NCBI GenBank assembly: GCA_002778785.1
Contig: PEZS01000004.1
Coordinates: 1 to 27,263 of the forward strand
Source of the DNA: Bdellovibrionales bacterium CG10_big_fil_rev_8_21_14_0_10_45_34
GTDB lineage: Bacteria; Bdellovibrionota; Bdellovibrionia; Bdellovibrionales; 1-14-0-10-45-34
DNA: 27,263 nucleotides
Reading direction: 5' to 3'
This document shows positions 13,869-27,263 of the stretch, piece by piece (position 1 is the first letter of the stretch; every line of letters begins with the position of its first letter). Position numbers and translations under genes: made by a program. Under the pieces are notes generated by a model. The model searched no databases, was not told the DNA's origin, and saw only the letters and a program-made list of their open reading frames with translations.

Positions 13869-14714
13869 ATGGGACTTAGAATTAATACAAACGTCGCTGC
13901 GATAAATGCGCAGCGAAACTTGGCGGGGACTAAACTAGCCCTCGACAAGAGTCTAGAGCGGTTATCCTCAGGATACCGCATTAATCGCGCCGGAGACGAT
14001 GCTGCCGGTCTTGCGATCAGTGAAAACCTCAAAGCACAAATGAGAGGTCTCAAACAGGCTTCTCGAAATGCTCAAGACGGGATTTCATTGGTGCAGGTCG
14101 CAGAGGGTGGTCTCAACGAGATCAGCTCTATCATGATTCGTCTTCGCGAACTCGCCGTACAGGCCGCCTCAGACACGATTGGGCCTGTAGAAAGACAGTT
14201 TCTGAACGTTGAATATGATCAACTTGTTTCAGAAATTGATCGTATTGCAGACGGTACTGAATTCAACGGGAACGCCCTTCTTAACGGAACCGGAGCCATT
14301 CTCGACTTTCAGGTCGGTACGCGAAACGATCCGGCGATTGACCGAATCACGTTTGATGGCTCAAAAGCCGATTCGAACGCAGCTGCACTTGGCATTAATT
14401 TAACAAGTGTCGCAGACAAAGCATCAGCGCAGAATTCTTTGAGCGCCATTGATACGGCGATCGTAAGTGTTTCAGCGATGCGTGCAGATTTTGGAGCAAT
14501 TCAAAATCGTCTGCAATCAACAACCAATAATTTGGCGATCTCTCTGGAGAATATGGCAGCAGCCAATAGCCGAATACGGGATGTTGATGTTGCTGAAGAA
14601 ACGTCAGAAATGACCAGGAATAATATATTGTTACAAGCGGGTACTTCGGTACTTGCTCAAGCCAATCAGTCGACGCGGACTGCACTTCAGCTCCTGAACC
14701 AAACATTTAGTTAA
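13869..14714 (+). CDS. Flagellin 1
   Basis: Structural subunit of the flagellar filament, exported through the flagellar type III apparatus. The protein has 281 residues. The N-terminal D0/D1 region begins MGLRINTNVAAINAQRNLAG and includes LSSGYRINRAGDDAAGLAIS. The central part (about 140-200) is short, with no expanded D2/D3 domain. The C-terminal D1/D0 region carries NMAAANSRIRDVDVAEETSE and ends with the QANQSTRTALQLL helix. There is no N-terminal signal peptide, as expected for flagellins. The start has an ideal AAGGAGG and a sigma-28-like promoter. A second, closely similar flagellin lies 5 kb downstream in the same orientation, so the filament is probably mixed. Strong hairpins follow the gene. 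Confidence 0.97.
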   Translation: MGLRINTNVAAINAQRNLAGTKLALDKSLERLSSGYRINRAGDDAAGLAISENLKAQMRGLKQASRNAQDGISLVQVAEGGLNEISSIMIRLRELAVQAASDTIGPVERQFLNVEYDQLVSEIDRIADGTEFNGNALLNGTGAILDFQVGTRNDPAIDRITFDGSKADSNAAALGINLTSVADKASAQNSLSAIDTAIVSVSAMRADFGAIQNRLQSTTNNLAISLENMAAANSRIRDVDVAEETSEMTRNNILLQAGTSVLAQANQSTRTALQLLNQTFS

Positions 14715-14933: not shown

Positions 14934-15542
14934 CTAGATGGGACATTCTTTTGGTTTAGAAACCGTCTTGCACTTTGGCAGATCTCCGCAAACCTGGTTG
15001 GGACGACACATGGCCAAAGGAAAACCAGGTCGGAGTGTTGGATCATCACACTCAACTTTCCAATGACATGTTGCTTCGTCAAGCAATGTACCCTTTGCTG
15101 TGCCTTGCTTTGGGGTAGTTTCGCAGCAGTTGATTGTTGATTCATTACAGCACTCAACTGGCGCCGCCGCACACTTGGCTCGCCTTTGGGGTGGACCTTC
15201 TGGAACCGGAATAATTTCGCAGCTCCAGCTAGGACAGTACGAGGAGACTATACGGTTGGTATAAGAGCCGTGTTCACATTGGTAACAATTCAAAGCGGGC
15301 GAACCACAACCTTCTGGAACAGGCAAGCCGGTAGGTGAGATCTGATCACACTTAAGATCCATTCCTTCTAATCGGGGGCAAAAATTACCGACAGCGTGGG
15401 CATAGAAATTAAAAGAGAGTGTGAAGCCAAGAGCGAGGTATCCCAAAAAAACATTTCGAAGAGAAGTGTGAAACAACAAAAATTGAGGAAGTTGCTTTTT
15501 CAAAGAAGAGCCTTCCTTAAAGAGGACTGGGAAGAAATTCAT
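14934..15542 (-). CDS. Cysteine-rich exported protein
   Basis: The protein has 202 residues from the ATG at 15542, which overlaps the stop of the upstream vWA gene (ATGA). The frame is open further upstream, but that would overlap the vWA gene by over 100 bases. A long N-region with LKKQLPQF is followed by a hydrophobic stretch (VFLGYLALGFTLSFNFYAHA), read as a signal peptide with cleavage near AHA. The mature part holds 18 cysteines in about 140 residues, arranged in small clusters such as NCYQCEHG, ECCNES and NCCETT, with a PVPEG motif occurring twice, so it is probably disulfide-stabilised outside the cytoplasm. I recognise no family. As third gene of a translationally coupled operon with two vWA/calcium-repeat proteins, it may be their partner at the cell surface. 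Confidence 0.75.
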   Translation of the reverse strand: MNFFPVLFKEGSSLKKQLPQFLLFHTSLRNVFLGYLALGFTLSFNFYAHAVGNFCPRLEGMDLKCDQISPTGLPVPEGCGSPALNCYQCEHGSYTNRIVSSYCPSWSCEIIPVPEGPPQRRAKCAAAPVECCNESTINCCETTPKQGTAKGTLLDEATCHWKVECDDPTLRPGFPLAMCRPNQVCGDLPKCKTVSKPKECPI

Positions 15543-17326
15543 TTTCTCTCCTCCCCAAGATAATAGAAATCGGTTGGAGAGACGGCAATTCCAGACGTCA
15601 ATTTTGGGCCGAGTGTCCCCGTATTTCGTACTTTTCGAACAGCGCCCCAAAAGCGAATTGAGTCGTCGGAGCTCTTCGAGTCAGGTATAGATCGCACTAA
15701 AAACAAAATGACATTTTCACTGGCCTCATGGCTGAGATCAAAGCATTTTTCGAGACCGTTTTGCGAGTCTCGGCTTTCACAAAGCTTTTTTCCACCCTCA
15801 AATTTTTTAGTTTCTGCAACAGGAATTTGATCAACACTCAATTGCCAAGTCTCATGCTCCTGAGGGCAAAAATCCTTCGGCGAAGTCAGCGTTTCTCGAA
15901 CCATGACTTTGTTTTCGTTTGGCAAATCAGCATCCCAAAATGAAAGGTCTGAGCCTTGTGCAATTTCAAAGCGGTTCACCCATCCGTCTCCGTCTCTATC
16001 GAGCAAGGCATCTGACAAGACGGGCGAAGATCCACGTATGAGTTCAATAAAGTCGATAATTCCGTCGCTATCAGAATCGAGCCCGTTCGACCCAGCAATG
16101 CGAAGAAGCGCCAGTTCGCAGGAGTTCATGCCAATGGCCATGCCCTTGCACTGTGAAACATCGATACCTTGCAAACAAAAAGGTTCACCCTCGGAATTCA
16201 GTTGAGCCCCGCCCAAATCTAAGCAAAGTTTGTCGAGTATTCCATAGGTTCTAGAATTGGTAGGATCAAAATTAAATTTTTCTTCTACTGAGTCGGGGAT
16301 TCCGTCCATGTCGCTATCCGCCTCGAGGCGGCCCTGATACATTATAGCCGTGAGGTTGATAACAGATAAGGACTCTTTTCGATATCGGGTCGAAAGCGGC
16401 TTATCAGTGATCTCGCAAAAAGTGTTCGCGTCGAGATTTCGAGACGCCTTGACACCGCCAGTGCGTCCACCCTCAGCAAGCATGTTGAGAGTGTCCAGCG
16501 CAGATGCCACTTCAGGGGGCTTAGGGGTAGCGTCCAAGAGTCTGTGGTAGAATATTGGCTGTATGAATGCGCTTTTGCCCTTTCCGATAGCTTGAATAAC
16601 AATATCTTGAGCCTGCTGTTTGAAGCAGTTGTTGTCTATATTTGTAGAGCCTTCCGCTCCGGCCCGCGTGCATACTCCCATAGTTGGGGCGCCATCAGTT
16701 ATAAAGAAAACTTGGTACTGGTTCGCAGATTTCTGACTGTTTTCGCTCACTAAGATGGATCGCAAGCAGTTTAATGCGGATTCGTAATTAGTTTGTTTCA
16801 TCTGCACGATTGGATCTTCAGGGTTTGCCCGAAGCCTCGCAAGATCGGAATCTTGCAGCGCTCCTAACTCTTGTAGTGCGCTGCTAGCTTCTTGTGAACT
16901 ATAGAAGGTTCCGTCGCACCCGTGGCTGTTTGGAGTCGTTATAAGTTTGTCAGAAAAAGAAATGATCTTGTAGTGAGTGTTGGGGCCTGAACAATTTTGA
17001 ATAAACTGGTTGGCTGATTCAAAGCGTGCCTTGGCGAGATCGTTTCCGAGACTTGTATCAAGACCATAGTTTGAACCACTGACAACGTTCTCTCCAATGT
17101 TTGATCGTGACATGTCAAAGACGAACACTACATTTTTCTCTACAAAGGAGGTGGATCTCATTTCTGAACAAAAGTATCCCTCCGCCTTAGACAACGAGGC
17201 TGGCTGGTCGAAAGTTCCCAAGCGCGCCTTAGAGCAATTTTGATGAAGGGCCAAAAGAGCGATCCCTGTGATTACGGGATAGATTAATCTTTCTTTTTTG
17301 GAACTTCTCAAATCAAGTGGTTTCAT
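15539..17326 (-). CDS. von Willebrand A-domain protein with calcium-binding repeats (second paralogue)
   Basis: The 595-residue protein is predicted to be exported. The N-terminal hydrophobic segment ends LLALHQNC, a relaxed lipoprotein box with C31, followed by SKARL. A vWA domain runs from about 63 to 300, with an intact MIDAS metal site: D71-x-S73-x-S75 in VFDMSRS, T179 and D211 in FFITDGAP. Three aspartate-rich thrombospondin type 3-like calcium loops follow: DSDMDGIPDSVEE (about 337-349), DSDSDGIIDFIEL (417-429) and DRDGDGWVNRFEI (443-455). A C-terminal domain of about 130 residues has no recognised family. vWA plus such repeats usually means adhesion or extracellular protein assembly. 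Its ATG directly follows the stop of the first paralogue (TAAATG, with GGAG just upstream). The cysteine-rich gene overlaps its 3' end by four bases. Confidence 0.85.
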   Translation of the reverse strand: MKPLDLRSSKKERLIYPVITGIALLALHQNCSKARLGTFDQPASLSKAEGYFCSEMRSTSFVEKNVVFVFDMSRSNIGENVVSGSNYGLDTSLGNDLAKARFESANQFIQNCSGPNTHYKIISFSDKLITTPNSHGCDGTFYSSQEASSALQELGALQDSDLARLRANPEDPIVQMKQTNYESALNCLRSILVSENSQKSANQYQVFFITDGAPTMGVCTRAGAEGSTNIDNNCFKQQAQDIVIQAIGKGKSAFIQPIFYHRLLDATPKPPEVASALDTLNMLAEGGRTGGVKASRNLDANTFCEITDKPLSTRYRKESLSVINLTAIMYQGRLEADSDMDGIPDSVEEKFNFDPTNSRTYGILDKLCLDLGGAQLNSEGEPFCLQGIDVSQCKGMAIGMNSCELALLRIAGSNGLDSDSDGIIDFIELIRGSSPVLSDALLDRDGDGWVNRFEIAQGSDLSFWDADLPNENKVMVRETLTSPKDFCPQEHETWQLSVDQIPVAETKKFEGGKKLCESRDSQNGLEKCFDLSHEASENVILFLVRSIPDSKSSDDSIRFWGAVRKVRNTGTLGPKLTSGIAVSPTDFYYLGEERK

Positions 17327-19306
17327 TTATTCTCCAGCATTGATACCATCTCTTGCGAATGTCGTCTCAAGCAAGCTTAGATCTACAAGAAAATTGCGGA
17401 TTGACTCCCCCGAAGATGTTTCGTGCCATGAGGTTAGCCATCTAGCTTTAGTAGGATTGTTTATATCAACAACCCGAGCAAACAATCGGACTCGATTTTT
17501 GTTAATAGGTGCGCCGCCAAATGGAAGCTGCATGGGACCTATTAGACTTGTTTCTGACTTCTGACGGTCTCGGTATCTTTTTGGATGTATGGACTCGCCT
17601 CTTAACTTTGCTACAGGAAAGTTTGTAATTTCGATTTGGTAACCTTCAGTCTGAGCAAGCTGTCCGCCCTCATTTGTGAAAAGTTCTCTGCCAAGGAGTT
17701 TTTTGACAAATGAAACCAAAGCCGACCTGTCTATCGATTGGTGATGAGGATACGGAGATGCATTAGAGCCAAAATGAACTACGTTCGAACTGTTGTCTCC
17801 GCTAGTATCAAGCCGTGAGTCGTTCTCATTTAAAAAGAAACCGTAAATTACTTCGAGCCCATCAGGAATAGAGTCTCCGTCTTGGTCGTAGTCGAGAGGG
17901 TTAGACCGAAGTATCATCTCTTCACACTCTGACAATCCATCGGCATCAATATCAATCTCAGAGTCACACTGAAGGGCTTCTGCAGAAAGCAAGCAAATGT
18001 CCCTATACTCAGGTTTGACAGCGATAGAGTCTAAGCAGACGCCATGTCCCAAAGAGTGCGAGTTTAGCGGATCTGTTCCCAACTTAATTTCAGTTTCGTC
18101 ATCTAGACCGTCGCCGTCGGAGTCAACTATAAGTTGGCCGTTGTCGCCGACTCGGTAGTTCACGTTGAGAGCATAGAAAGCAGTCATTTGAAACGACTCA
18201 AAATCCTTTTTCATCAAGAAATTTGGCTTTGTAGGAAAGTCATCACTCACCAAATTTGCGTAGGCGTCTTGCGGGAAAAAACTATTGGCCATCTTAATAA
18301 AATTGTTTTCTGGTTTGTTGCGTTCACTCTCGATGCGATCGGGATGAATCTGCAAGAACGAGAATCTAAGTTGACCTTCCCCGTAAAAGAGAGGGAGTGA
18401 TTTGATCGAATCGATCTTTGAAACAACGACTTCTAGCTCATTGTTTTCTGGTTCTCCCCAGTTTTGTCTCATTTCACTGAGAGCGCTAATACAAATTTGA
18501 GGGCTACAGGTGCCAGACTCGCCCGGCATACATGCAGACGGACAGTTCAATAGATTCATCGTAACTTCAAAGTCCTCTATGGTGGGGCTCGGTACCCCAT
18601 CAGAGACTAAGTAGACTTCGTAGAGTGCGCTATCTAAAGTGCCCTCTTCCTTTAAACTATTCATGTCAAAAAGTGTTTTTTCGATGGCTTTGTCAAGCGC
18701 CTTAGCTGGGACCGATGTTCCCATAAAGGGGTCTGTAATGGGGTTTGTTGAAGACTCTTTGACGCTCATGTTGTGCTGATTTAAAAGCACGTCGATGTAT
18801 CTGAGCGACTCATTAACTGGCAAAAAATAATTGTATTGGCGCAAAGGATAGAAGCTTACATCCCAATTTAAGTCTCGTTGGATCTGCTTGAACCCGCCAG
18901 TGAACGGAAAAATAGCTATTTTCAAATCAATATCTAAACCGTCGGCAATCGCTCGTTCAGTTTCCAAAAGAAGGTTCTTGATAGACTCTAGCCGATGGCC
19001 ATCTCGATCTCGTGCCCATGCAAAATTCTGGCAAGAAGAACCCGGGTTAGATGGGCTTGCACCATCAATATCTGTTGGACATGTACCGTTTACCATCGAA
19101 TGCGACATATCAACTATAAAAACCAATCTTTGAGGGCCTCGGGTCTCTGTTGGTGGCTTGAAATAGCTCGACTTGAGCTCGCTCTTCGTGACCTCACTCC
19201 TGAAGCTTTGCGCCAGACGAACCTTCGAACAATTCGAGGCAAGCACTATCGAGTAAAAAACCAGCAACCATGCTAATAATAGTCCACTTGATTTTTTCAA
19301 ATTCAA
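17327..19306 (-). CDS. von Willebrand A-domain protein with calcium-binding repeats (first paralogue)
   Basis: The protein has 659 residues and the same layout as the next gene. The N-terminal hydrophobic segment ends VLASNC (C26, relaxed lipoprotein box), followed by SKVRL. The vWA domain spans about 58-385, with a complete MIDAS: D66-x-S68-x-S70 in FIVDMSHSM, T197 in GTSVPAK and D236 in YLVSDGVPSP. Aspartate-rich calcium loops occur at about 395-407 (DSDGDGLDDETEI), 451-463 (DIDADGLSECEEM) and 474-486 (DQDGDSIPDGLEV). A unique C-terminal domain follows. The start is TTG at 19306 with GGAG upstream. It is the first gene of a three-gene coupled operon that runs against both flanking flagellin genes. 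The two paralogues share order of domains and spacing but are diverged in sequence, so the duplication is old. Surface adhesion is the likely role, by inference. Confidence 0.85.
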   Translation of the reverse strand: MNLKKSSGLLLAWLLVFYSIVLASNCSKVRLAQSFRSEVTKSELKSSYFKPPTETRGPQRLVFIVDMSHSMVNGTCPTDIDGASPSNPGSSCQNFAWARDRDGHRLESIKNLLLETERAIADGLDIDLKIAIFPFTGGFKQIQRDLNWDVSFYPLRQYNYFLPVNESLRYIDVLLNQHNMSVKESSTNPITDPFMGTSVPAKALDKAIEKTLFDMNSLKEEGTLDSALYEVYLVSDGVPSPTIEDFEVTMNLLNCPSACMPGESGTCSPQICISALSEMRQNWGEPENNELEVVVSKIDSIKSLPLFYGEGQLRFSFLQIHPDRIESERNKPENNFIKMANSFFPQDAYANLVSDDFPTKPNFLMKKDFESFQMTAFYALNVNYRVGDNGQLIVDSDGDGLDDETEIKLGTDPLNSHSLGHGVCLDSIAVKPEYRDICLLSAEALQCDSEIDIDADGLSECEEMILRSNPLDYDQDGDSIPDGLEVIYGFFLNENDSRLDTSGDNSSNVVHFGSNASPYPHHQSIDRSALVSFVKKLLGRELFTNEGGQLAQTEGYQIEITNFPVAKLRGESIHPKRYRDRQKSETSLIGPMQLPFGGAPINKNRVRLFARVVDINNPTKARWLTSWHETSSGESIRNFLVDLSLLETTFARDGINAGE

Positions 19307-19734
19307 ATCGTCTCCAATGCGCCCATGTATTCACTCAAGTCTACACGGAAGATTAAATGCTCGTGAAACAGTATCTCTTATTGAATCGGCAGATTTGACA
19401 CGCGTCTTAAGTCGAGATTAGCTTTTCAAGTGTCTATTTAAGCAGAGGTTTTTCAAAGCCACTTGGGTCGCTTTTTTCTATAACATTTAGTCATGTGACT
19501 AATCCTTAAGCAGGCGACATCTGGAGCGAGTGTGTTAGTGCCTTCGTCTAGTTTTTCCGTTGAGGTCTCAAAATGAAATGATTCAATCCGATACGTTTCA
19601 TGGAGAGACAGTTGTCGCTGAGGTCCAAGAAGGACCATAGCGATACCTAGTAAAAAAACGAAGTGCAGAATGCGCTTCAATGCTAACGGACGGCACAAAT
19701 CAGGGAGGATTTGCCATGCAAGGAGGATAGAGAA
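19307..19734. other. Divergent intergenic region between vWA operon and flagellin 2
   Basis: About 430 bases that must hold the promoter of the minus-strand vWA operon and of flagellin 2. A minus-strand ORF of 81 codons (19453-19698) has a signal-like hydrophobic start (LHFVFLLGIAMVLLG) but only a TTG start without a ribosome-binding site, and it overlaps the candidate flagellin promoter; I treat it as doubtful. Two purine-rich ribosome-binding-like sequences precede flagellin 2 (AGGGAGGA at 19702-19709 and AAGGAGG at 19720-19726). Confidence 0.4.
19568..19594 (+). promoter_or_regulatory. Candidate sigma-28-type promoter for flagellin 2
   Basis: TCAA at 19568-19571, exactly 15 bases, then TCCGATAC at 19587-19594. 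It matches three of four and six of eight positions of TAAA-N15-GCCGATAA. The implied leader of about 135 bases is long, so confidence is moderate. Confidence 0.4.
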
Positions 19735-20568
19735 ATGGGATTGCGCATTTCAACCAATGTCGCGTCGCTCAACGCACAGAGAAACTTAAGAAACTCTGAT
19801 CAACTTATGAAGACATCGATGGCTCGATTGAGCTCTGGCTATCGAATCAACCAAGCTGCAGACGACGCAGCGGGATTGGCAATCAGTGAAAATCTGAAAG
19901 CACAAATCCGTGGTCTCAAGCAAGCTTCAAGAAACGCACAAGACGGAATTTCGCTCGTGCAGGTTGCCGAGGGTGGTCTCAACGAAATCAGTTCGATGAT
20001 CATTCGCCTAAGGGAACTCGCCGTACAGGCAGCTTCTGATACTATTGGCGACACCGAACGAAAATTCATCGATGTCGAGTATCAACAACTCAAATCAGAA
20101 ATTCAGCGTATTGCAGAAGTGACCACCTACAATGGCACCGATCTTCTCAATGGTACTGGCAGTATCATCGATATACAGATCGGAACTCACAATGATCCTT
20201 TCAAAGACAGAATATCTTTTAATGCAGGCGCAGCAAATTCCAGTTTGCTAGCACTGGGTTTAACCAGTGAATCGGTTGGTACCAAAGAAGGTGCGCAAAA
20301 AAGTTTGACGACCGCAGACGATGCCATTGTTTCTGTGAACGCGATACGAGCTAACTTTGGTGCGCTACAGAACCGACTTAATTCGACGATCAACAACTTG
20401 GCAATCGCGGATGAGAACTTTTCAGCAGCAAACAGTCGAATACGAGACACTGATGTCGCCGCTGAGACAGCCGAGCTAACAAGAAATTCTATCTTGCAGC
20501 AAGCGGGAATTTCAGTCCTGCAGCAAGCTAACTCAATGCAGTCTGCAGCACTCAAACTACTCGGTTAA
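19735..20568 (+). CDS. Flagellin 2
   Basis: Second filament subunit, 277 residues from the ATG at 19735 that directly follows AAGGAGG; an in-frame TTG at 19711 would add eight residues, but the paralogue starts at the equivalent MGLRI. The N-terminal region (MGLRISTNVASLNAQRNLRN, then LSSGYRINQAADDAAGLAIS) and the stretch up to about residue 100 are almost identical to flagellin 1. The centre differs (for example IDIQIGTHNDPFKDRISF against LDFQVGTRNDPAIDRITF), and the C-terminus ends SAALKLLG, a few residues shorter. It lacks a D2/D3 insertion. Distinct promoters and leaders for the two copies suggest different expression levels or positions along the filament, as known for multi-flagellin bacteria. 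Confidence 0.97.
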   Translation: MGLRISTNVASLNAQRNLRNSDQLMKTSMARLSSGYRINQAADDAAGLAISENLKAQIRGLKQASRNAQDGISLVQVAEGGLNEISSMIIRLRELAVQAASDTIGDTERKFIDVEYQQLKSEIQRIAEVTTYNGTDLLNGTGSIIDIQIGTHNDPFKDRISFNAGAANSSLLALGLTSESVGTKEGAQKSLTTADDAIVSVNAIRANFGALQNRLNSTINNLAIADENFSAANSRIRDTDVAAETAELTRNSILQQAGISVLQQANSMQSAALKLLG

Positions 20569-24030: not shown

Positions 24031-24109
24031 GGAACCACTTTAGCAAGGAACCACTTTAACAAGGAACCACTTTAACAAGGAACCACTTTAACAAGGAGCC
24101 ACTTAGTAA
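24031..24109 (+). repeat. Tandem 16-bp repeats ending in the ribosome-binding site
   Basis: Units GGAACCACTTTAGCAA (24031-24046), then GGAACCACTTTAACAA three times (24047-24094), then a degenerate GGAGCCACTTAGTAA that runs into the ATG at 24110. In the last unit the change to AAGGAGCC makes the best Shine-Dalgarno; the earlier units carry AAGGAA. Unit number could vary by slippage or recombination. Confidence 0.92.
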
Positions 24110-26176
24110 ATGAAAAGAAGTCAGCGTATTTGCAGTATACTCACTTTTTCACTGGCGGTCTCTCTTGCCGTTACGTCAAAAGCAAACTCTGATGGTGTGT
24201 GTGAGAATCTGCTACTGGTTGGAGCGAGATTTCTAGCCGAGCGGCAATTAGAGTTAGTTCCTGTTTTTGCGTCTAGCACAAGTAACGAGGCTGCACCGGA
24301 AGATACGCAGACCCCGGCTACTCAAAGAATGGCTGATTGGCTTACTCAATTAGAACAGGCCATTAAAGACCAAGCCATTGATCCTCAGGCTCTTGAAAAG
24401 CTCAAGGAGCATTTTCGTCAAAAGTATATTGTGAAATATGAAGACATCCCCGAGAGCTATTTTCATATGCAAGTGAAGATGGCTCGTGAGCAAGGCTATG
24501 GCACGAACAATCTTACAGATGCGCAGCGAAGGCAGATGGCAGGCGTGCTTATTGAGGATCAAAAGGCGTCGCTCAACCAATGGCTTGACTACCTATTGTC
24601 CTCAGAGACCTCCGAAATTTACCCCGTATGGATGAAGTACTGGACACTGGTGGAAATTGGAAAATTAGGTAAATTCAACCCTGAGCAAGGCACGTTTTCT
24701 GGAAGACCGCTTGGTACCGTGGCTCCTTTTGCAGAGCTCAACAGGGCAGCTTACGCGATGGTGGTTGATGTCATCGTGAAAGATCTTAATAAAAAGACTC
24801 TAGCTGAGGCGATCCATCCAAAGTTTGCAGACCTCATCCGCAAAAAGAATTTTTCAAACATGTATGCTCGAGCGCTTCAACTCAAAACTCGAGAAGTTGC
24901 AGACCTATCTTCAGTTGAAGGCCGCTGGATCAAGTACAATAAAGGATCTGATCACAGGCCGTTAGTATTATCGCTGCAAGGTAAAGCCACCAACTGGTGC
25001 ACCGCCGGTGAAAAAACAGCCGAAGTGCAACTGAAAGCAGGCGATTTTTATGTGTATTACACAAAAGACAATTTAGGTGGCTTCACCCAACCTCGCATCG
25101 CCATTCGCATGAATGGTGCTGACATTGCTGAAGTCAGAGGTATTGGCAAAGATCAGAACTTAGACAGCCAAATTGCTCGTACCGACACCTTTGATAGAAA
25201 GTTGGTCGAGTTTGGTCCTGCTGGCAAGAGGTATCTGAAACGATCGCGTGATATGAAGTTACTCGCCACCCTCGAGGAAAAGCAAAATAGCGATGAAGAA
25301 TTTACTGTTGATGAACTCAAATTCCTCTATGAAAAGGACTCGGCAATAGAGGGATTTGGAAATGAGAAACATCCTAGCATTGCGGAAATCAAGTCGAAGC
25401 GGGATTTTAGAGAGGATATCGCAAAAATACATAACGTAGATATTAGCCTTGTTACCAATAAAAAAGAGGATATCTTAAGCGGCAAAGCCCATTACTTTTA
25501 CGGAGATTATGTACACGAACGTGGTGATGATCTGTCGCGAGCTCATTTAGTAGCCATTTATGGCAGAGCCGATTTTCAAAGTCTGACCAATGCTGATGGC
25601 CTTAGTGCTCTGACTCACATTGGTGGGGATGCTCGCTTTGGTGGCCTCACCGACGCAAATGGCCTCAGCGCTCTGATTTACATATTAGGGATGGCTCTCT
25701 TCGAGAGCCTGACCAATGCTGATGGCCTCAGCGCTCTGACTCACATTGGTGGGGATGCCATATTTAGGAGCCTCACCAGTGCTGATGGCCTCAGCGCTCT
25801 GACTTACATCGGTGGGAAAGCTTTCTTTATTGACCTCACCAGTGCTGATGGCCTCAGCGCTCTGACTCACATTGGTAGAGATGCCTTATTTTTAAGCCTC
25901 ACCAGCGCCGATGGCCTCAGCGCTTTGACTCGGATTGGTAGAAGCGTTCTGACTCACGTTGGTGGGGCCGCTGGCTTTTCACCACTGGCCAACAACGCAA
26001 AAGGTCTCAGCGCTCTGACTCACGTTGGTGAGAATGCTTACTTTGACAGCCTCACCAGCGCCGATGGCCTCAGCGCTCTGACTCACATTGGTGGGCATGC
26101 TCACTTCCCCAGATTGTTGAAAAGAGTTTGGCGAAAAGAAGGGCTTCACGGCCGTTTTGTTAGCAGCTATCCATAA
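24110..26176 (+). CDS. Secreted protein with WCTAG domain and C-terminal solenoid repeats
   Basis: The 688-residue protein has a signal peptide (1-25, ending TSKA). Residues 70-260 are helical and unrecognised. Residues about 270-360 contain GRWIKYNKG, ATNWCTAGE (Cys297), GDFYVYYTKD and PRIAIRM followed by EVRGIGKDQNLD. I recall such a W-C-T...GDF-Y-V-Y domain, joined to similar repeats, in hypothetical proteins of several phyla; its function is unknown. Residues 487-667 are eight or so 21-residue units of the form LTSADGLSALTHIGGDAxFxS, an LRR- or receptor-L-like solenoid. One unit is cut short (LTRIGRSVLTHVGG), the trace of an in-frame deletion, and the next has one extra residue. The tail VWRKEGLHGRF is basic. 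The gene is isolated, and its stop overlaps the convergent transposase gene by ten bases. Binding to a surface ligand is a reasonable guess. Confidence 0.75.
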   Translation: MKRSQRICSILTFSLAVSLAVTSKANSDGVCENLLLVGARFLAERQLELVPVFASSTSNEAAPEDTQTPATQRMADWLTQLEQAIKDQAIDPQALEKLKEHFRQKYIVKYEDIPESYFHMQVKMAREQGYGTNNLTDAQRRQMAGVLIEDQKASLNQWLDYLLSSETSEIYPVWMKYWTLVEIGKLGKFNPEQGTFSGRPLGTVAPFAELNRAAYAMVVDVIVKDLNKKTLAEAIHPKFADLIRKKNFSNMYARALQLKTREVADLSSVEGRWIKYNKGSDHRPLVLSLQGKATNWCTAGEKTAEVQLKAGDFYVYYTKDNLGGFTQPRIAIRMNGADIAEVRGIGKDQNLDSQIARTDTFDRKLVEFGPAGKRYLKRSRDMKLLATLEEKQNSDEEFTVDELKFLYEKDSAIEGFGNEKHPSIAEIKSKRDFREDIAKIHNVDISLVTNKKEDILSGKAHYFYGDYVHERGDDLSRAHLVAIYGRADFQSLTNADGLSALTHIGGDARFGGLTDANGLSALIYILGMALFESLTNADGLSALTHIGGDAIFRSLTSADGLSALTYIGGKAFFIDLTSADGLSALTHIGRDALFLSLTSADGLSALTRIGRSVLTHVGGAAGFSPLANNAKGLSALTHVGENAYFDSLTSADGLSALTHIGGHAHFPRLLKRVWRKEGLHGRFVSSYP
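25568..26109 (+). repeat. 63-bp coding repeats
   Basis: About eight near-identical 63-bp units (plus a partial one around 25940-25970) in the 3' part of the 688-residue gene. Each contains a block close to GGCCTCAGCGCTCTGACTCA. Sequence identity is high at the DNA level, including third positions, so the units were amplified or homogenised recently. The array is in-frame, so gain or loss of units only changes solenoid length. Confidence 0.93.
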
Positions 26177-27014: not shown

Positions 27015-27046
27015 CGATGACTTCAACTCGCCCAAGTGACGTTGCC

Positions 27047-27263
27047 TGCTTATCCTGCTTATGCTGCTTATCCTGCTTATGCTGCTTATCCTGCTTATGC
27101 TGCTTATCCTGCTTATGCTGCTTATCCTGCTTATGCTGCTTATGCTGCTTATGCTGCTTATGCTGCTTATGCTGCTTATCCTGCTTATGCTGCTTATGCT
27201 GCTTATGCTGCTTATGCTGCTTATGCTGCTTCGGAGATTATCTTGCTTATCCTGCTTATCTTG
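27047..27263 (+). repeat. 9-bp minisatellite (TGCTTATSC)n
   Basis: Twenty contiguous 9-bp units fill 27047-27226. They are of two kinds, TGCTTATCC and TGCTTATGC. The first ten alternate strictly, giving an 18-bp higher-order unit; then GC-type units dominate with one CC-type at position 15. After an interruption (TGCTTCGGAGATTATCT) the motif resumes at 27244 and runs out of the window. An ATG at 27017 opens a frame through the array to the window end, but its Cys/Leu product is unlikely to be real. Confidence 0.95.

Follow-up and report, generated by a model that had tools for sequence, protein, structure and literature searches.

The window examined here is the whole stretch of 27,263 nucleotides analysed, positions 1-27263 of contig C4 in a 3.06-Mb genome of 16 contigs (G000). 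Three minus-strand genes with uninterrupted frames occupy positions 14934-19306, between two plus-strand flagellin genes (13869-14714 and 19711-20568) that lie outside the module. Gene A (17327-19306) starts with TTG and encodes a 659-aa lipoprotein with a MIDAS-type vWA domain, TSP3 loops and a C-terminal beta domain. Gene B (15539-17326) encodes a 595-aa lipoprotein with the same domain order, as read from its frame, alignments and hhalign comparisons, and gene C (14934-15542), read from an ATG at 15542 to a stop codon at 14934-14936, encodes a 202-aa exported protein. The stop codon TAA of A is fused to the ATG of B in a TAAATG junction (17324-17330, minus strand, GGAGAATAAATGAAA), and B and C overlap in an ATGA (15539-15542, minus strand, GAGAGAAAATGAATT). 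Direct reading of frames and junctions thus confirmed the coupled three-gene operon of the original prediction, its two flanking flagellins and the 18 cysteines attributed to C. The GC content of the operon (0.44-0.47) matches that of the window (0.45) and gives no sign of recent foreign origin. Predicted promoters and terminators showed no excess over shuffled sequences.

Tandem repeats were also seen elsewhere in the window. At its right end (27046-27259), a 9-bp unit, CTGCTTATG, forms an array of ~21 copies with a 36-bp higher order, and one frame across the array translates to a Cys/Leu repeat. A 63-bp repeat (~5.7 copies, 25583-25942) lies inside a plus-strand ORF of 688 aa (24110-26176), for which Pfam gave no clear family and weak matches to DUF7930/DUF6279. 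Directly upstream of this ORF is a 16-bp tandem repeat (24031-24104; 4.6 copies, 96% matches).

A and B share a signal peptide with an 'NC' lipobox, followed by a vWA domain, TSP3-type Asp loops and a C-terminal beta domain. The lipobox, described as relaxed in the original prediction, reads 'ASNC' or 'HQNC' here; that description needs correcting, as homologues mostly carry 'QNC' and the same-genome paralogue has a standard 'VGC'. Pfam recognised neither the vWA domains of A and B nor gene C, detecting in A the TSP3 part alone, and searches of NCBIfam and of PDB sequences also failed to detect the vWA domain of A or B. Because sequence searches missed these domains, structure prediction was needed. 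In the AlphaFold model of A (pLDDT 79.5, pTM 0.74), residues 55-366 (18209-19144, minus strand) adopted a vWA fold when compared with ANTXR2 (VIA Z 15.7, rmsd 2.9 Å over 169 residues). Similar agreement was obtained with the vWA domain of TEM8 (Z 15.5, rmsd about 3 Å) and with the pilus adhesins SpaC (Z 14.8) and Mfa5 (Z 13.7-14.8 for the two), and Foldseek matched A to PitA with E 4e-4.

The MIDAS of A is made up of D66, S68 and S70 in the motif DMSHS (19097-19111), T197 (18716-18718) and D236 (18599-18601). In the vWA domain of B (16367-17137, minus strand), placed by alignment and hhalign, the corresponding residues are D71, S73 and S75 in DMSRS (17102-17116), T179 and D211; the paralogue B' matched VWA_2 with E 0.014. 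Across 16 homologues of A and 16 of B, each of these positions is either invariant or conserved to at least 90%; the prediction of a complete MIDAS vWA domain in both proteins was borne out. By hhalign, A and B are homologous in both the vWA domain (98.4%) and the TSP3 blocks (99.8%). The proposed Asp-rich calcium loops correspond to bacterial TSP3 repeats (PF18884); in A they span residues 395-510 (17777-18124, minus strand; E 7.9e-7) and show invariant Asp and Cys columns, and in B the Pfam match was sub-threshold. The C-termini had been thought unique, a view that did not survive comparison with a further lipoprotein, D, described below: the C-terminal beta domain of B (15551-15889, minus strand) is homologous to the C-terminus of D (hhalign 97%, E 1.3e-11), and that of A is a weak relative.

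Profile searches with A, B and C in 116 genomes of the same order placed full-length A and full-length B at one and the same set of 16 loci, spread over 13 genomes, with neither gene ever occurring alone. No full-length A was found outside the order in a phylum-wide sample of 191, and none was found in phage records. A single-sequence scan of named genomes with A gave no relative, but a profile scan did find relatives. Among loci in named records, Oligoflexia bacterium SJ240 (L094) carries A-B-C and Pseudobdellovibrio CRAIB_MAG49 (L095) carries A-B-C-D; a third (L092) stops within B. In the surveyed genomes the gene order was A-B-C or A-B-D-C, D being a TSP3 lipoprotein of ~317 aa that is often the fourth gene of the operon, and in one genome (G011) one further lipoprotein gene lies between D and C.

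A C-type gene was present at all A-B loci with a covered flank. Matches to the C profile below E 1e-12 occurred at 12 of the 16 A-B loci and at no other place in the 116 genomes; the other four loci have, in the equivalent position, a small exported C-like Cys-rich gene (16-30 Cys). Weaker matches elsewhere (E 1e-8 to 1e-5) covered only the Pro-rich tail (positions about 158-239); we attributed them to composition and discarded them. The family signature C-x2-[LI]-E-[GN] found in the window's C is also present at L094 and L095. Lack of conservation or of purifying selection in C had been named beforehand as grounds for abandoning the prediction. C turned out to be conserved, with dN 0.29 and dS 1.25 for tandem copies in G073 and pN below pS for other pairs, which indicates that it evolves under purifying selection. 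The AlphaFold model of C was poor (pLDDT 49) and was left out of interpretation.

Trees of A, B and C were congruent on the main groups. Both copies in the window's genome group together in all three trees, and the copies of G092 and of G109 split into different clades in the same way for A, B and C. The recurrence of the family across genomes places the set well beyond chance. The constant pairing of A with B, the presence of C, the congruent trees and the purifying selection on C together indicate that A-B-C is a real co-inherited operon. The proposed check of whether the three families occur apart thus returned A and B only together, with a C-type gene alongside. The original prediction had read the constant, tightly coupled set as one extracellular complex; given a co-inherited unit and a constrained C, we think it a sound inference that the three proteins would form such a complex.

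Several variants of this gene set were seen. In G073, C is duplicated in tandem at the operon end (L044 328-1107 and 1190-1933, 66% identity). In G058 (L025 2234-4264) and G092 (L039 4250-6292), a Cys-rich lipoprotein-like protein of 676-680 aa is encoded downstream of C; in the G058 protein, RCC1-type beta-propeller repeats (PF13540, E 1e-34) come after a TSP3-type N-terminal part. A locus on contig C16 of the window's genome (L022 6605-11125) encodes a vWA/TSP3 lipoprotein of another type, V2 (533 aa), and a D-type lipoprotein (317 aa), without C. We considered this locus as a third A-B pair, and it was dropped from the alignments because its 519-aa protein failed to align with B.

Closest to the window operon is the paralogous A'-B'-C' on contig C1 of the same genome, with 34-35% identity in all three genes. 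It lies directly upstream of a motor cluster encoding an outer-membrane barrel, a GltC-like protein, a 1083-aa TPR protein, a GltG-like FHA protein and TolQ-TolR-TolR. The barrel is of GltA/B type by its match to OMP_myx_plus (TIGR04565, E 1.4e-24, 86.9 bits versus a cut-off of 60). The order barrel-GltC resembles that of Myxococcus gltB-gltA-gltC, the M. xanthus operon that contributes two outer-membrane barrels and one periplasmic TPR protein to the gliding complex (PMC4488436). The GltC-like protein matched NF033756 (E 2.7e-14) with 53 bits against a cut-off of 450, and the GltG-like protein matched NF033760 over residues 9-669 (E 3e-35) with 122 bits against 650, its tail exceeding the myxo_SS_tail cut-off (67 versus 40 bits). 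Both are less like the Myxococcus models than are the GltC and GltG of another cluster in this genome. The TolQ-TolR-TolR genes stand in this order (L060 8486-10161), the layout of AglR-AglQ-AglS, a TolQ-TolR-TolR-type motor (PMC3169522), and the order is repeated in most of the related clusters compared.

The genome holds four Agl/Glt-like clusters, one on C1, two on C8 (~35-46 kb and ~59-71 kb) and one on C16 (~325-335 kb), and four have been reported in B. bacteriovorus as well (PMC3169522, PMC2797640). Among the four, A-B-C accompanies only the C1 type. Within the C16 cluster (L063 4913-6058), a 381-aa vWA lipoprotein is encoded beside the GltC-like gene, with a PF00092 match at the cut-off and a layout that recalls Bd1483. 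Between C' and the barrel gene on C1 lies an ORF of 179 aa (L021 6643-7182) for a tyrosine-recombinase-like protein, an integrase-like fragment that may be the trace of an earlier rearrangement in the cassette.

The association with the C1-type cluster recurs. The operon adjoins such a cluster in 7 of the 13 genomes (G000, G011, G058, G066, G094, G081 and, by its motor genes, G073), compared with ~0.12 expected by chance (P about 6e-11); in the other six, operon and cluster are on different contigs of draft assemblies, which would mask any linkage. With the large TPR protein as marker, the cluster type was present in 30 of the 116 genomes, comprising 13/13 genomes with A versus 17/103 without it (hypergeometric P 2.2e-9). 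Neither P-value is corrected for phylogeny. Within genus g13 the cluster occurs only in the two genomes that have A (G066 and G071), and within genus g9 only in G092 and G094. Most g13 genomes have neither operon nor cluster, so the operon is not a general gliding adhesin of that genus. In cluster genomes without A, a V2-type vWA/TSP3 lipoprotein is often encoded close by.

The pairing of a vWA lipoprotein with an Agl/Glt machine has precedents. In Myxococcus the Glt complex recruits the vWA adhesin CglB (PMC13104615), which has been reported only in Myxococcales (PMC3169522). CglB of M. xanthus is a vWA outer-membrane lipoprotein working with the Agl-Glt machine, and a vWA domain with MIDAS is found here in the fold of A (Z 15.7) and the conserved MIDAS of A and B, for which a signal peptide and lipobox make the same location a prediction. 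By gene order and co-occurrence, the vWA genes described here are linked to GltA/B-, GltC-, GltG- and AglRQS-like genes. The differences are that two vWA proteins with TSP3 stalks, D and the Cys-rich C share one operon, and that the gliding role of the C1-type partner cluster is putative. We do not claim identity with CglB; by analogy, the complex encoded by the operon would work like it. An NCBIfam scan of A and B named the Myxococcus TSP3 proteins MtsD and CglD and no CglB model, the content of that library for CglB not being established; NF033766, which we had guessed to be the CglB model, is choice_anch_G and was uninformative. MtsD matched the TSP3 region of 16/16 A and 13/16 B proteins and CglD that of 13/16 A and 7/16 B, but neither match extended beyond the TSP3 stretch, and both fell well short of the cut-offs (38 bits versus 800 and 30 versus 400).

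In B. bacteriovorus, Bd1483 is a lipobox-MIDAS protein (PMC11003981) and the agl operon is Bd1473-1483 (PMC2797640); its number falls within that range, which makes it a precedent for a vWA lipoprotein in an agl cluster. On surfaces, the gliding-cluster genes bd3099 (vWA) and bd1480 (aglQ) are upregulated (PMC9140294). With CglB, Bd1483 and bd3099 as precedents, the combination of vWA lipoprotein and Agl/Glt machine is a known theme, and the operon is an enlarged variant of it. The remark in the original prediction that no named system has this composition therefore stands for the exact set and falls for the theme. Bd1483 and Bd0875 have the lipobox and MIDAS vWA in common with A and B, but they are short (Bd0875, 378 aa), carry the vWA domain as an insert in a small beta domain built from their N- and C-terminal ends, lack a TSP3 block and have no second vWA or Cys-rich partner described; in A and B, vWA domain, TSP3 loops and C-terminal beta domain follow in series. 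The pilus-tip adhesins SpaC, PitA and Mfa5 share the vWA fold with MIDAS but are pilus proteins without a Glt cluster or TSP3 stalk, the likeness being one of fold only.

We favour, at a probability of roughly 0.6, a reading in which the products of the operon form the adhesive part, exposed at the cell surface, of an Agl/Glt-type trans-envelope machine in Bdellovibrionales. Both A and B would be lipoproteins of the outer membrane, and the MIDAS metal in their vWA domains would contact a ligand on a surface or on prey. The TSP3 loops with Ca2+ would stiffen the stalk, and the C-terminal beta domain would serve assembly. The exported C, rich in disulfides, would act as a partner of A and B that caps them or cross-links them. 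In the paralogous copy, taken as the main one, the neighbouring machine would both carry this complex and set it in motion, with the GltA/B-like barrel keeping it at the cell surface. The barrel and the GltC-like and TPR proteins would make up the part of the machine that lies in outer membrane and periplasm, the GltG-like protein would act as linker and TolQ-TolR-TolR as an inner-membrane proton motor. Powered by protons, the complexes would move while anchored through the MIDAS, and the cell would glide or crawl, or the adhesins would be transported along its surface; CglB is described as acting in this manner for Agl-Glt in Myxococcus (PMC13104615). The window copy would be a diverged second adhesin cassette, probably serving the same machine with another ligand. 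No Glt or motor genes were found on its 88-kb contig, so it would either use the C1 machine in trans or act alone.

The position of the window copy bears on where else such a complex might serve. The original prediction drew from it a role in attachment, surface sensing or a filament sheath, and indeed the operon sits between two flagellins, which together with the motor-free contig is a counterpoint to the machine model. However, no flagellin was found in the flanks of any other operon and motor-cluster locus; the recurring neighbour is the Agl/Glt-type cluster, the operon lies on the strand opposite to both flagellins, and the same-genome paralogue is located elsewhere. There is thus no conserved association with flagellar genes, and the place between flagellins is most likely incidental. 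That A, B and C are proteins of a flagellar sheath or filament, or of surface sensing, we consider highly improbable; an attachment role is likely. Attachment could also be had from A and B as stand-alone prey or surface adhesins, giving static or catch-release contact in predation or biofilms, with the motor cluster a mere neighbour. Bd0875, a lipobox-MIDAS adhesin needed for prey entry with an essential MIDAS residue D66 (PMC11003981), is a model for this; the isolation of the window copy from Glt genes agrees with it, and two operon copies per genome would fit ligand diversity. The recurrent linkage and the 13/13 co-occurrence with one type of motor cluster argue against it, as do the TSP3 block and C partner that Bd0875 lacks, and we regard it as rather unlikely.

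Doubtful too, if a little less so, is that the C1-type cluster is a surface transport or export machine whose cargo, the vWA/TSP3 complex, is spread or released over the surface without the cell being moved. Agl can drive the Glt paralogue Nfs, which moves polymer round the spore (PMC3858216), and cluster variants carry other vWA/TSP3 lipoproteins of the V2 type, as would be expected of cargo. The divergence of the C1-type GltC and GltG from those of Myxococcus also means that the output might be transport and not gliding. The vWA MIDAS domains, on the other hand, imply a grip on a ligand; the present evidence fits transport and gliding alike. An adhesive subcomplex of the Agl/Glt-type machine remains our preferred account.

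We know of no gliding adhesins in the Bdellovibrio-related group. The operon offers a concrete candidate for the adhesive end of such a machine, tied by gene order and co-occurrence to one motor cluster, with D66 of A and D71 of B as candidate sites for point mutation, and C represents a Cys-rich family outside Pfam, recognisable by its signature and co-inherited with the vWA pair. A broader view, which we offer tentatively and hold to be possible at less than even odds, is that motility in a Bdellovibrionales lineage depends on a focal-adhesion machine in which several subunits, in a modular and interchangeable assembly, take the place of a lone CglB at the adhesive end. On that view, and as tentatively, the subunits may be the two vWA/TSP3 lipoproteins together with D as a further TSP3 lipoprotein and the disulfide-rich C, and diverged spare cassettes such as the one in the window would alter what the machine grips.
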